A DNA stretch of 24,710 bases from a virus. The stretch covers positions 1-24,710 of IMG/VR virus record IMGVR_UViG_3300042312_000015. One strand, written 5' to 3'. Below, piece by piece: positions 19,334 through 23,319 of the stretch (position 1 is its first letter; each line of letters opens with the position of its first letter). The notes below the pieces were generated by a model. That model worked only from the letters and a program-made list of their open reading frames with translations, was not told where the DNA came from and ran no database searches. The position numbers were made by a program, and so were the translations under genes.

Positions 19334-20110
19334 ATGCGTAGACGCTTATTCTTTGACATCGAAGTAAGCCCGAATATTGTCTTTTCGTGGCGTGCAGGCT
19401 ATAAACTAAACATTGACCCTGACAACATTATTGAAGAGCGTAAAATCATTTGCGTTTGTTGGAAATGGGAAGGCGAAGACGAAGTTCACTCTTCGACGTG
19501 GGATAAAAAGCAAAACGATAAGAAGCTTTTAAAAGACTTTATCAAGGTACTAAATTCAGCACACGAAATTGTCGGACATAACAGTGACCGTTTCGATACT
19601 AAATGGCTACGCACACGAGCGATTATGCAAGGCGTTGATATGTTAGCTCACTACGTATCAATTGACACGCTTAAAAAGGCTAAAAACGGCTTTTATTTTA
19701 ATTCTAATAAACTCGATTACTTGGGTAAAGTTTTACTTGGTCAAGGTAAACTTGAAAACGGGGGTTTTGACACGTGGCGAAAGATAGTTTTAGACAAAGA
19801 CGAAGATGCTTTAGAACGGATGGTTAACTATTGTAAAAAAGACGTACAGATTTTGGAGCAAGTTTACCACAAATTAGAGCCTTATATAAAACCAACCCAA
19901 CACTACGGAGTTATGTTTGGCGAAGAAAAGTTTTCTTGTCCTCACTGCTCAAGTTATAATATAGCACGTCACGCAATGTACGCTACAGCAGCTGGAACTA
20001 TTAAATATCAAATGCGTTGTAAAAGTTGCAGAGGCGGCACGTTTATTTTTAATCAAAAGACCTACACAGACTTATTAACATTCCAGATTAAACAGAAAAA
20101 TATTCATTAA
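19334..20110 (+). CDS. DEDD-family 3'-5' exonuclease with C-terminal zinc ribbon
   Basis: The 258-residue protein shows the four acidic residues of DnaQ/PolB-like exonucleases: FFDIEVSP (D8, E10) for Exo I, GHNSDRFDTKWL (D88) for Exo II, and NYCKKDVQIL (Y166, D170) for Exo III, which places it in the DEDDy group. A zinc ribbon follows with CPHC (202-205) and CKSC (229-232), which may bind nucleic acid. No polymerase domain is present. It is a single-gene unit between two strong terminators, oriented like the late genes but just before the early control region. It may degrade host DNA or RNA ends or assist replication and recombination. Confidence 0.8.
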   Translation: MRRRLFFDIEVSPNIVFSWRAGYKLNIDPDNIIEERKIICVCWKWEGEDEVHSSTWDKKQNDKKLLKDFIKVLNSAHEIVGHNSDRFDTKWLRTRAIMQGVDMLAHYVSIDTLKKAKNGFYFNSNKLDYLGKVLLGQGKLENGGFDTWRKIVLDKDEDALERMVNYCKKDVQILEQVYHKLEPYIKPTQHYGVMFGEEKFSCPHCSSYNIARHAMYATAAGTIKYQMRCKSCRGGTFIFNQKTYTDLLTFQIKQKNIH

Positions 20111-20153: not shown

Positions 20154-20176
20154 GCGGTAGAAATACCGCTTTTTTT
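20154..20176 (+). terminator. Rho-independent terminator after the exonuclease gene
   Basis: GCGGTA (20154-20159) and TACCGC (20164-20169) form a perfect 6-bp stem with a GAAA tetraloop (20160-20163) and a T run (20170-20176). It insulates the early control region from upstream transcription. Confidence 0.85.
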
Positions 20177-20238
20177 ATGCCCTGAAAGTCCAGTAAACAT
20201 TGACAAACTAAAAATAATTGAAAAAAATATTAAAATAA

Positions 20239-20270
20239 TTATACACAATTAAAAAAGTTGTGTACATTTG
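20239..20270 (+). promoter_or_regulatory. Early control region: DnaA-box-like inverted repeat overlapping a -7 box
   Basis: TTATACACA (20239-20247) matches the DnaA-box consensus TTATNCACA. TACACAA (20242-20248) and TTGTGTA (20258-20264) form a perfect 7-bp inverted repeat with a 9-base spacer. TACATTTG (20263-20270) matches the Bacteroidota -7 box TAnnTTTG and overlaps the right arm. No good -33 TTTG is seen. The flanks (about 20200-20300) are extremely A+T-rich. The site could be an operator over the early promoter, a replication origin, or both. A phage DnaA-type DNA-binding protein is encoded 1.2 kb downstream. Confidence 0.6.
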
Positions 20271-20300
20271 CATATATCAATTAACGAAAAAACAGAAATT

Positions 20301-20375
20301 ATGAAAGACTTTTTAAAATTTGCACTCGCAGTTTATTTACTCGGTTTAATTATCGGAATCATTGAATCACTTTAA
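20301..20375 (+). CDS. Small membrane peptide, function unknown
   Basis: This 24-residue ORF is the first of the early operon, about 30 bases after the -7 box. The peptide starts MKDFLKF and continues with one hydrophobic helix (about residues 7-21, LGLIIGIIE at the end). Its start context, aaaaaacagaaattATG, closely matches the next two genes, which supports real translation. It may be an early inner-membrane peptide, for example one affecting superinfection or the host envelope, but nothing shows a specific role. Confidence 0.45.
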   Translation: MKDFLKFALAVYLLGLIIGIIESL

Positions 20376-20386
20376 AAACAAGAATT

Positions 20387-20551
20387 ATGTCACTTACAGA
20401 AAAACTAATCAATTATCAATTAAAAGCAAACGAGTACACTCGATTAATTGACCAAGCAAAAAAAGACAACAAACAAATATTAGTTGACGTTTACACGGAC
20501 TTACTCAACCAATGTAACAGACTAATTGACCTTTGTATTAATAACCTTTAA
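20387..20551 (+). CDS. Small helical early protein, function unknown
   Basis: The 54-residue protein starts with MSLTEKLINYQLKANEY and is predicted to be mostly helical, with two heptad-like helices (about 3-28 and 30-52). It has two Cys residues (C43, C50). The start lies 11 bases after the previous stop and is preceded by aaaaacaagaattATG, the leader form shared with its neighbours. I do not recognise a family. Confidence 0.5.
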   Translation: MSLTEKLINYQLKANEYTRLIDQAKKDNKQILVDVYTDLLNQCNRLIDLCINNL

Positions 20552-20561
20552 AAACAAGAAA

Positions 20562-20897
20562 ATGGAAAAGTATAAAGATTTTAGAATTGACTTAAGAGAT
20601 GAACAAGCTGAATGCGTTATCAACAACATTTTATTTACTATAAAGTTTGAGGTTTACAGTTACGTTTGCGAATACGATTCATTGCGATTTGAGTTTTGGG
20701 ACGACGACCTTTGTGAGTTGATATTTGTTGAACCAAAAGACCTTGAGAAATACGGTATTACTTCAGATGTTTACGAAAGTTTACACGATGAAATCAGTAA
20801 AGAAATTGAATGCTGGTATTACGAGAACTATGATGTTGACCCTGATGAAGACATAGAATTTTATTTAGAAAGAAAACAAAAATCAATTAATTATTAA
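20562..20897 (+). CDS. Acidic early protein, function unknown
   Basis: I chose the ATG at 20562 (111 residues), which follows aaaaacaagaaaATG; an in-frame ATG at 20526 lies inside the previous gene. The protein is strongly acidic, with D/E far exceeding K/R, and its C-terminal third (VDPDEDIEFYLE) is especially so. Several aromatic residues are present. Small acidic early phage proteins sometimes mimic DNA to block restriction or other DNA-binding enzymes, but no known mimic family is recognised. It is followed after 3 bases by the next early gene. Confidence 0.6.
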   Translation: MEKYKDFRIDLRDEQAECVINNILFTIKFEVYSYVCEYDSLRFEFWDDDLCELIFVEPKDLEKYGITSDVYESLHDEISKEIECWYYENYDVDPDEDIEFYLERKQKSINY

Positions 20898-20900
20898 GCT

Positions 20901-21107
20901 ATGAAAGTAAAATTAGAATTTGAAGACCTTGACCATGCGGAACACTATTTAAAAGGTGGCGACTATTTCAGCGCATTGCACGAATTTAAATATTGGCTTC
21001 GCAACGAATGGAAACACGGTGAACACGACGAAAAAGAGTTCGAAATAGTTGATAAGATTTACGAGAGTTTCAACGAAACATTAAACGATTATAAAATAGA
21101 TTTATGA
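20901..21107 (+). CDS. Conserved-looking small early phage protein
   Basis: The 68-residue protein has the pattern LEFEDLDHAEHYLKGGDYF, SALHEFKYWLRNEWKHGEHD and a C-terminal helix ending in DYKIDL. The 'A-L-x-E-F-x-x-W-L-R' centre resembles a small protein found in many phages next to replication genes, whose function I do not know. The stop and the next start overlap as ATGA, which suggests translational coupling. Confidence 0.6.
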   Translation: MKVKLEFEDLDHAEHYLKGGDYFSALHEFKYWLRNEWKHGEHDEKEFEIVDKIYESFNETLNDYKIDL

Positions 21108-21304
21108 AACATACAGCGGTACAATGGTTACTTGAGAACCTTATTTCAGAACCATATTCAGAAAAGGATTTTGAACACAATAAAAATTGTTGGAACAAAG
21201 CTGAAGAAATGGAGAAAGAGCAGATAATTGAGGCATTTGAACACGTTGATTTTAACCTTGACGATGGGCTACATTATTACAACGAAACCTTTAAATCAAA
21301 ATAG
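21104..21304 (+). CDS. Small early phage protein with AVQWL / EKEQIIEA pattern
   Basis: The 66-residue protein starts HTAVQWLLENLIS and continues with AEEMEKEQIIEAFEH. This pattern (T-A-V-x-W-L ... A-x-E-M-E-K-x-Q-I-I-x-A) is recurrent in small ORFs of Bacteroidota phages. Its function is unknown to me. It overlaps the previous gene by 4 bases, and its stop is one base before the next ATG. Confidence 0.6.
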   Translation: MKHTAVQWLLENLISEPYSEKDFEHNKNCWNKAEEMEKEQIIEAFEHVDFNLDDGLHYYNETFKSK

Positions 21305-21305
21305 A

Positions 21306-21443
21306 ATGAATTACATCGACTTAAACAGCATAATTGAATACTGGACTAAAAAGAAACACGAAGGCGACAAGGGCGGGACTTTCAACGTACAACTTTACTT
21401 ACAATACTTAAAAGCAAAAAGCAATGAAATACAAACGAGGTAA
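21306..21443 (+). CDS. Small early protein, function unknown
   Basis: I chose the ATG at 21306 (45 residues, MNYIDLNSIIEYW...) because it directly follows the previous stop (TAGA-ATG). An in-frame ATG at 21228 would force a long overlap in another frame. The 3' end overlaps the DnaA-domain gene by 20 bases. The protein is short and polar, and no family is recognised. Confidence 0.5.
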   Translation: MNYIDLNSIIEYWTKKKHEGDKGGTFNVQLYLQYLKAKSNEIQTR

Positions 21444-21840
21444 GATAGCAAAGATTATTGAGGTGTCGTCTTTTGAAATGGTCGACTTTTACGAGGCTTG
21501 TCCTTACATTTTTGAAGGCGAACTGTTAAAAACACGAAAACAAGAAGTAGTTATTTGGCGTAATATCGGTATGGTGTGGAACTGGATGAGCGGAAAATGC
21601 TTACAAGATGCGGGTAAAGACTTCGGTAGAGACCACTCAACGGTAATACACGCTATAAAACAAGTCTTAACAACATACGAAGGTTACGGATACCAAGAAA
21701 TAAAAGAAAACATCGAACTAATTAAAGAAAAATCACGTTGCCACATTAAGCCAGTTGAAGATATTAACGTAAATGAGTTAAAAAATTTGGTCCTAATGGA
21801 AAATCGAATAAGTAAATTACTTAAATTAGCAGAAATCTAA
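21424..21840 (+). CDS. Stand-alone DnaA domain IV-like DNA-binding protein
   Basis: The 138-residue protein carries the DnaA C-terminal signature GKDFGRDHSTVIHA (residues 64-77), preceded by a helix with LLKTRKQEVVIWRNIGMVW (about 34-52) that matches the start of domain IV. It lacks the AAA+ ATPase and Walker motifs of full DnaA. In host DnaA, this domain alone binds DnaA boxes (TTATNCACA). It could bind the phage origin or control region, compete with host DnaA, or recruit replication proteins. A matching box lies at 20239-20247. Extra C-terminal helices (about 90-138) could be an interaction module. It is in the early operon just before the recombination genes. Confidence 0.8.
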   Translation: MKYKRGKIAKIIEVSSFEMVDFYEACPYIFEGELLKTRKQEVVIWRNIGMVWNWMSGKCLQDAGKDFGRDHSTVIHAIKQVLTTYEGYGYQEIKENIELIKEKSRCHIKPVEDINVNELKNLVLMENRISKLLKLAEI

Positions 21841-21851
21841 AAACAAATAAA

Positions 21852-22385
21852 ATGAAAAAACAAGAAGAAACAGTTGAAGCTGCGGCTTTAACATTCCTAC
21901 AAAAGTTGCACAACGCAAAGCAATCAATTAAGAAAGTAGCGAAGAACGCTAAGAATCCACACTTTAAAAACAATTATGCAGACATTAACGCATTAATTGA
22001 GGAAGTCGAACCTATCTTATTAGAAAACAGACTTCTATTATTACAACCTATTGAGGACGGTTACGTGTATAGTCGAATAGTTGATATTGACTCGGGTGAA
22101 ATCTGTGAAAGCTGTATGAAGTTACCCGAAATACAAGACCCCCAGCGTATTGGGTCGGCTGTTACATACTACCGTCGTTACACATTGCAATCGCTGATGT
22201 CGTTGCAGTCAATCGATGATGATTCGAATTTAGCTTCTGAAGCTGTTAAAAGTCAAAAACAAGGATTAACTCAAGAAAGATTTTTAAAAGCGTTAGAAGG
22301 CATTAAAAACGGTACTGTGTCGAAACAAGACTTATCCAAGTTTGAACTAACTAAAGAGCAACTAATTAAACTTAACGAGATATGA
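21852..22385 (+). CDS. ERF-family single-strand annealing protein
   Basis: This recombinase anneals complementary single strands in phage recombination and repair. The 177-residue protein has the ERF pattern: FLQKLHNAKQSIKKVAKNAK (19-38), FKNNYADINALIEEVEPIL (41-59), and the conserved core RIGSAVTYYRRYTLQSLMSL (about 97-116) followed by DDDSN. The C-terminus is a helical linker. Pairing with an exonuclease two genes downstream mirrors Red-type systems. The start follows an A-rich tract (aaaaacaaataaaATG), and the end overlaps the next gene by 4 bases. Confidence 0.85.
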   Translation: MKKQEETVEAAALTFLQKLHNAKQSIKKVAKNAKNPHFKNNYADINALIEEVEPILLENRLLLLQPIEDGYVYSRIVDIDSGEICESCMKLPEIQDPQRIGSAVTYYRRYTLQSLMSLQSIDDDSNLASEAVKSQKQGLTQERFLKALEGIKNGTVSKQDLSKFELTKEQLIKLNEI

Positions 22386-22657
22386 CACAAGAAAGAAAAC
22401 AAGAAATTGAAACAGAGGTAAAAAGACGTTTAAATCTTTGGTTAGAAAATAGCACCTTTGAAGAAATGACAGTTAATGGTTCTAAAATGAGGTTTGAAAC
22501 AGCTTTAGGTATGGTAGGTTATCCGTTTGTTCCTGAAAGTTGGATGAGTAAAAAAGAGTGTTCTCAATTTATAAAAGATTACGAATTTTATAGCCAAGAA
22601 TACAATGACATTATAGACGAACTTTTTAAGGAAAATTTTTTAAAATATATAAAATGA
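22382..22657 (+). CDS. AT-rich small protein inserted between the recombination genes
   Basis: The 91-residue helical, acidic protein starts MTQERKQEIETEVKRRL and has GMVGYPFVPESWM near 47-59 and KDYEFYSQEY near 69-78. I do not recognise a family. Its codons are more A+T-rich with fewer CpG than in the flanking ERF and exonuclease genes, consistent with later acquisition. It overlaps both neighbours by 4 bases (ATGA), so it is translated within the recombination operon. It may modulate the recombinase pair or counter a host defence such as RecBCD; this is inference only. Confidence 0.6.
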   Translation: MTQERKQEIETEVKRRLNLWLENSTFEEMTVNGSKMRFETALGMVGYPFVPESWMSKKECSQFIKDYEFYSQEYNDIIDELFKENFLKYIK

Positions 22658-23319
22658 AAATACGTTGCTCACAATTAGGACGCATTATGACAGCGCCTCG
22701 GAGTAAATCTGAGGTGTTAAGTCAAACCGCAAAGACATACGTCGAGGAACTCGCTAAGGAACACTTGTTTGGAATTAAAAAGGTGTTTAAAAGCCGTTAC
22801 ACGGACAAAGGGAACGAAGTTGAAGAGAAAGCAATCGAACTTACTGAGGATGTCTTAGGATTCGAGTTTTTAACTAAGAACGAACATTATTACCAAAACA
22901 ATTGGGTAAAGGGTACACCCGATATTATAACGACATCTTTAGTTATTGACGTGAAAAGTAGCTGGTCAGGTGACACGTTTCCGTTCTTTGAGACTGAACT
23001 ACCAAATAAAGACTACTACTATCAAGTGATGGGGTATATGTGGCTAACGGGCAAGAAAAACGCTTTAATTAGTTATTGTTTAATTAACACACCTGAAGAA
23101 ATTGTTAACGATGAAATACGACGAACCGCTTGGGGTAAATACGAAATCGAACCCTCTGAAGAAACTATTCGAGATGTTATGGCTTTACATAGTTTCGACC
23201 ATATACCGAAAGACCGAAGAGTAAAAGCTTTCCACGTTGAATATAACGAAGGGGTTGTTAACGAGATAAAAACACGGATTGAACATTGTCGAACCTATTT
23301 TAATGAATTGATAAGATGA
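22654..23319 (+). CDS. YqaJ/lambda-exonuclease-like recombination nuclease
   Basis: The 221-residue protein has PD-(D/E)xK nuclease motifs. GTPD (D90) is followed by LVIDVKSSW (D99, K101), a helix with GNEVEEKAIE (about 53-62) supplies acidic ligands, and YYYQVMGYMWLTG (121-133) contains the conserved Q-G-Y segment of YqaJ-type proteins. Such enzymes resect double-strand ends to give 3' tails for the annealing protein. Start and stop overlap the flanking genes (ATGA at both ends). With ERF it forms the phage recombination module. Confidence 0.8.
   Translation: MKIRCSQLGRIMTAPRSKSEVLSQTAKTYVEELAKEHLFGIKKVFKSRYTDKGNEVEEKAIELTEDVLGFEFLTKNEHYYQNNWVKGTPDIITTSLVIDVKSSWSGDTFPFFETELPNKDYYYQVMGYMWLTGKKNALISYCLINTPEEIVNDEIRRTAWGKYEIEPSEETIRDVMALHSFDHIPKDRRVKAFHVEYNEGVVNEIKTRIEHCRTYFNELIR

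Follow-up and report, generated by a model that had tools for sequence, protein, structure and literature searches.

DnaA autoregulates the dnaA promoter through DnaA boxes. The consensus of the box is TTATnCACA, in which the fifth base is free (PMC5742627), and the contact residues of E. coli DnaA are R399, H434, and H439 (PMC7561715, PMC5742627). Within the box, R399 recognizes TTA from the minor groove and the recognition helix recognizes TnCACA from the major groove (PMC5742627). Another protein relevant here is GafA, which is an activator and acts on a gene transfer agent (PMC6363796, PMC9638019). Many uncultured phages encode stand-alone DnaA C-terminal proteins, and we found no paper among the openly licensed literature that describes a phage stand-alone DnaA domain acting at its own promoter. 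In this study, we analyzed the early promoter region of a phage that encodes such a protein, within a stretch of 24,710 nucleotides (IMG/VR record IMGVR_UViG_3300042312_000015), the whole of which is referred to as the window.

Organization of the early promoter

The features described below are on the plus strand, except for the inverted repeat, which has no strand. An exonuclease gene (19334..20110; RNase_H_2 / DNA polymerase exonuclease type) is located upstream of the early promoter and served as the anchor for finding relatives. It is followed by an intrinsic terminator (20154..20176), which was read from the sequence as GCGGTA-GAAA-TACCGC and then a T run; it was not listed by a generic terminator scan, and its pairing is kept in contigs L005-L007 by a compensatory change (GCGGTG-GCAA-CACCGC). 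Upstream of the promoter there is a conserved A-tract stretch (20206..20238), which we infer to be UP-element-like and which has a mean pairwise identity of 0.80 versus 0.48 further upstream.

The promoter is marked by a -7 box of the Bacteroidota sigma-A type, TACATTTG (20263..20270), which the initial annotation had placed inside the A+T-rich gap and which is present there. It fits TAnnTTTG, the Bacteroidota -7 consensus (PMC9723704, PMC7366714), and is invariant in all 34 contigs compared. A TTTG at -33 is absent from the window and present in relatives of the TTTTGCACR type; in F. johnsoniae promoters in general, no -33 motif has been found (PMC7366714). The first small ORF of the early operon (20301..20375, 24 aa) was read from the sequence. 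As a separate observation, a sharp mosaic junction is located just past the -7 box (20271-20300, and the same place in L004-L059), where three interchangeable leaders (CATATATCAATTAACG, TAAGGTAATCAACAACG, and TAAGGTCAATAAGGCACAAAAC) recur across the tree beside the invariant -7 box.

The initial annotation also pointed to a DnaA box, TTATACACA, which is found at 20239..20247 as an exact match, and to an inverted repeat, TACACAA / TTGTGTA (20242..20264; arms 20242-20248 and 20258-20264, with 9 nt between them), whose perfect 7-bp right arm overlaps the -7 box. Neither the box count nor the inverted repeat is remarkable taken singly, because the chance expectations are near the counts seen: the 190-nt gap holds a single 7-bp inverted repeat, with 1.0 expected, and the window holds three exact TTATNCACA boxes, one of them that at the promoter, with 1.2 expected (P = 0.13). 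An exact box in the 47 nt preceding the -7 box has a P of 0.0013 in shuffles, for a region that was picked because of the box. If the inverted repeat were a palindromic repressor operator, it might be conserved in relatives, but its arms pair at 7/7 positions in only 1 of the 34 contigs, which is the window itself, and at merely 3/7 positions in nine. The inverted repeat was therefore rejected as a functional element and is judged to be incidental.

The region was also considered as a possible replication origin, with either host DnaA or the DnaA-like protein of the phage recognizing it. In agreement with this, an A+T-rich gap with box-like repeats adjoins replication and recombination genes. 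However, the three exact boxes in 24.7 kb form no cluster, there are only two sites at the promoter and no iteron cluster, both of these sites are tied to promoter elements, and the phage protein has no AAA+ domain. The cumulative GC skew climbs steadily through 20.2 kb with no turn there, in a record that may be incomplete and that has most of its genes on one strand. We therefore consider an origin very improbable.

Conserved direct repeat in relatives

Relatives were gathered with two queries, the DnaA-like protein and the upstream exonuclease, and conservation was followed in the 34 contigs that share the promoter (the main clade). This set was partly collected using the pattern itself, and the independence of the contigs is limited by recombination and shared ancestry, so the argument rests mainly on the pattern of change position by position.

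The exact DnaA box occurs in only 7 of the 34 contigs. What the comparison with related phages brought out instead is a direct repeat, TTnTnYACR-N10-TTRTKTACA, present in 34/34 contigs and consisting of two asymmetric DnaA-box-like 9-mers arranged head to tail 19 bp apart. In the window, the left (upstream) half-site is the exact box described above, situated at the approximate position of a -33 element, and the right (downstream) half-site is TTGTGTACA (20258..20266), which runs directly into the TTTG of the -7 box, TACA being common to both. Parsimony changes on the exonuclease tree of the 34 contigs, counted for positions 1-9, are 0,0,10,0,8,2,0,0,5 in the left 9-mer and 0,0,7,0,3,0,0,0,0 in the right. 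T1, T2, T4, A7, and C8 have thus not changed in either copy, and positions 3 and 5 have changed repeatedly. Across the 110 columns compared, the stretches starting at 20239 and 20258 are the only ones that differ from the DnaA box at no more than three positions in each of the 34 contigs. The direct-repeat element has a single occurrence per phage, always at the early promoter, and the pair are the sole intergenic half-sites within the window. The element had no match in a scan of 257 Gb of genomes from bacteria and archaea, nor did the exact pattern of the window's repeat have a match among viral contigs.

The inexact boxes in most relatives are TTTTGCACG, TTGTTCACA, and TTATTTACA. TTTTGCACG is the commonest left site among the closest relatives of the window and is a poor DnaA box; the TTTTGCACR form is found in 11/34 contigs, and the TTTG of TTTTGCACG also fits a -33 element. 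In a rival explanation, there would be no operator, and the box would be a variant of the -33 region, kept by ordinary promoter conservation. The contigs are close relatives, the spacer and the A-tracts are likewise invariant, and the TTTTGCACR type reads TTTG-N19-TAnnTTTG, all of which suit this explanation. However, it is the TTnTnYAC pattern that is kept and not the -33 TTTG/TTG, and positions 3 and 5 vary many times in both copies where their neighbors never do, which makes a promoter with no operator extremely improbable. An extra half-site, TTATTTACA, noticed in some relatives about 30 nt upstream of the start codon of DnaA_C, was rejected because it falls within LYLQ codons of the gene before it and is not conserved.

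The DnaA-like protein

The DnaA-like gene (21424..21840) is located about 1 kb downstream of the half-sites in the same operon, and its 138-aa product is their proposed ligand. The initial annotation described the product as a lone DnaA domain IV with no ATPase, and the profile searches agree: PF08299 (Bac_DnaA_C) matches at 35.7 bits (cut-off of 31.5) and is the sole Pfam domain in the ORF, and an AAA+ ATPase domain III was looked for and not found in the 138-aa protein, whose score is far below the cut-offs for full-length DnaA. All 14 aligned family members match PF08299, with E values up to 0.01. Residues R38, D70, H71, and H76 of the window protein are the equivalents of E. coli R399, D433, H434, and H439; R38, H71, and H76 do not vary among the 14 relatives, and either D or N occupies position 70.

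The structure prediction for the full-length protein had a pLDDT of 56, too poor for use, and gave no resolved C-terminal tail; the domain alone reached 79. Foldseek with the domain model returned weak matches, none of them with an E below 0.001, and 1j1v (Z of 5.2) stood amid unrelated rows of similar Z. Since the structure matches are weak, the domain assignment is carried by the sequence profiles, which place the 138-aa protein in the family of DnaA domain IV. The protein is not itself a DnaA initiator. A check for a GafA-type organization, with a DnaA-like N-terminal and a sigma-like C-terminal part, gave Bac_DnaA_C only in Pfam.

Early operon and phage lifestyle

Next after the DnaA-like gene, the operon encodes an Erf-like single-strand annealing protein (21852..22385), and further on a recombination exonuclease (22654..23319). 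The DnaA-like gene is present in every contig that has the direct repeat and a sufficient length of DNA downstream. Contigs with no DnaA-like match may simply end too early, because they hold less than 1.6 kb past the upstream exonuclease gene; elsewhere, the DnaA-like gene starts 0.7 to 1.8 kb past it. The content of the block of small ORFs between the promoter and the DnaA_C gene (20376-21423) differs greatly from one relative to another, even where these are otherwise close.

An integrase and an HTH_3 repressor were looked for in eight long relatives, whose records may be incomplete, and neither was found; the simplest picture is therefore probably that of a lytic phage that uses feedback and not lysogeny. 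No prophage copies were found in the bacterial and archaeal genome contigs scanned, and tblastn searches with three members gave no match to cultured phages. The only DNA similarity, a distant one, was to the exonuclease of filifjonk/mumin-group Flavobacterium phages, in which the early region has a different arrangement. The host of the phage is probably Flavobacterium or a close relative.

Protein type and the sites of other clades

The proteins of the D433 type (RDH) go with C at box position 6 in 20/20 contigs, and T at this position is found only with the D433N type (RNH), in five of six contigs, the exception being L055. The one-sided Fisher value of 9e-5 for this association ignores ancestry, and on the tree the association amounts to about one joint change; for this reason, it only suggests a connection between the residue and the box base. 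E. coli D433 has been reported to act at box position 7, not 6 (PMC8235120), so the link would be indirect.

These data also bear on whether host DnaA itself binds the sites and couples early transcription to host replication, or whether the phage protein competes with it there and at oriC as a decoy, a role that the initial annotation had considered. Exact host-type boxes are found in 7/34 contigs, and the phage domain retains the contact residues of DnaA, which is all that speaks for the decoy version. On the other side, the boxes in most relatives are inexact (TTTTGCACG, TTGTTCACA, and TTATTTACA), the phage genomes are not enriched in boxes, and the box variants partly track the type of the phage protein. 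A role of host DnaA, or of a decoy, is thus improbable.

A divergent clade (L060, L061, L064, and L129-L136) encodes proteins that share about 33% identity with the window protein and have H, not R, as the residue preceding D/N. Its members carry TTATNAACA 16-18 nt before the early -7 box, in the forms TTATTAACA, TTATCAACA, and TTATAAACA, which differ from one another in the fifth base alone (T, C, or A). Since 5-7% of the shuffles of a promoter are expected to contain a box with one mismatch, the strength of this case lies in recurrence at one place.

A third clade (L138-L147), with KNH instead of RDH, has no DnaA-box-like site at the early promoter, the best candidate having three mismatches. 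This may either count against the proposed regulation or reflect an altered specificity. It was also observed that L138-L147 and L062 have the spacer TTGYGTAKTAAWWWTAAWGC in common before the -7 box, which looks like a different operator. In other phages that carry a related exonuclease, there are proteins that end in a DnaA-like RNHSTILH motif and have an unrelated N-terminal part (L065 5262-5630, L067 6860-7228, L071 7523-7891, and L076 7158-7541).

The third clade, having a DnaA-like protein and no DnaA-like promoter sites, agrees with the possibility that another regulator, of phage or host, has the direct repeat as its operator and that the DnaA-like protein does another job. Several early ORFs have no assigned function, and the function proposed for the DnaA-like protein follows just from co-occurrence and site shape. 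However, for asymmetric 9-mers arranged head to tail, a monomeric DnaA-type domain is a better fit than a dimeric repressor, the fixed bases agree with those of the DnaA box, and the eight long related records have no HTH_3 family protein. We regard another regulator as doubtful. A wider, tentative idea, which we hold to be possible but on the unlikely side, is that the phage stand-alone DnaA domain IV proteins are a family of early-operon autoregulators whose recognition residues and half-sites have diverged together by clade, the pairs being RDH with TTnTnCACR, RNH with TTATTTACA, H(D/N)H with TTATNAACA, and KNH with an unrelated element. If so, these phages would provide a series of naturally occurring shifts in the specificity of the DnaA recognition helix, in a context other than replication.

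Proposed feedback repression of the early operon

We suggest, with a probability of roughly 0.4, that the phage protein binds the pair of half-sites and turns down its own early operon. The region would then be the early promoter of a probably lytic phage with a built-in two-site operator, in which TTnTnYACR covers the -33 place and TTRTKTACA runs into the -7 box, each presumably bound by a monomer. Because the half-sites overlap the -33 place and share four bases with the -7 box, candidate binding should block the polymerase. Once enough phage protein was made, RNA polymerase would be blocked at the promoter, and the early recombination and replication operon would be turned down via negative feedback.

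The proposal that a phage DnaA-like protein acts at its own early promoter was already part of the initial annotation. It has gained a conserved box-like pair that occurs once per relative, with the gene wherever the downstream DNA suffices, and in which substitutions are confined to certain positions; the inverted repeat, as incidental, has dropped out of it. The half-site pattern is counted in favor of repression, since the same positions are fixed and variable in both copies and match the free fifth base of the DnaA box. Counted against it are L055, the third clade with no site, and the poor box TTTTGCACG with its -33-like TTTG.

The same sites and the same protein might also serve activation, with the upstream half-site at the -33 place helping RNA polymerase in a positive early-to-middle switch. 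The window and the TTATNCACA/TTATTTACA types have no TTG at -33 and thus a poor -33 element, and GafA, a regulator of phage origin whose N-terminal domain is DnaA-like, acts as an activator (PMC9638019, PMC6363796). A poor -33 is uninformative, however, as F. johnsoniae promoters in general yielded no -33 motif (PMC7366714), and an early promoter must fire before the phage protein exists. In addition, four bases of the second half-site belong to the -7 box as well, so occupancy of this half-site should exclude the polymerase. Activation is therefore unlikely.

Comparison with known systems

The phage protein and bacterial DnaA domain IV (PF08299; E. coli 1J1V) have the same domain by profile and by sequence matches to solved DnaA chains; the fold match of the model to 1J1V is weak, and the contact residues R, D, H, and H are kept. 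Unlike bacterial DnaA, the phage protein has no AAA+ ATPase and no domains I-III, carries a C-terminal extension of about 35 residues, and has only two candidate sites, located at a promoter. Among uncultured Caudovirales, the stand-alone DnaA C-terminal proteins in BFVD (e.g., A0A6J5MQZ8) share the DnaA-like annotation and a weak fold match, and Bacillus phage Pony has a protein annotated as a DnaA-like replication initiator (PMC3853050). No target site or function was found reported for the BFVD and Pony proteins, nor any job for phage stand-alone DnaA C-terminal domains, whereas one such domain now has a conserved candidate target.

With respect to use, the closest system is GafA, which is likewise a phage-derived regulator that employs a DnaA-like DNA-binding domain in transcription control. 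However, GafA has a sigma-like C-terminal part and activates, whereas the phage protein is small and is proposed to repress. The regulation suggested here also resembles the autoregulation of the dnaA promoter, with DnaA boxes at the promoter of its own operon and feedback, but it would involve domain IV alone, at a phage early operon, through sites that overlap Bacteroidota promoter boxes. The candidate promoter role would be a testable new use of a known domain. If it is true, a piece of a replication initiator became a phage transcription switch for early genes, and the differences from clade to clade are natural variants for how the DnaA helix reads its box.
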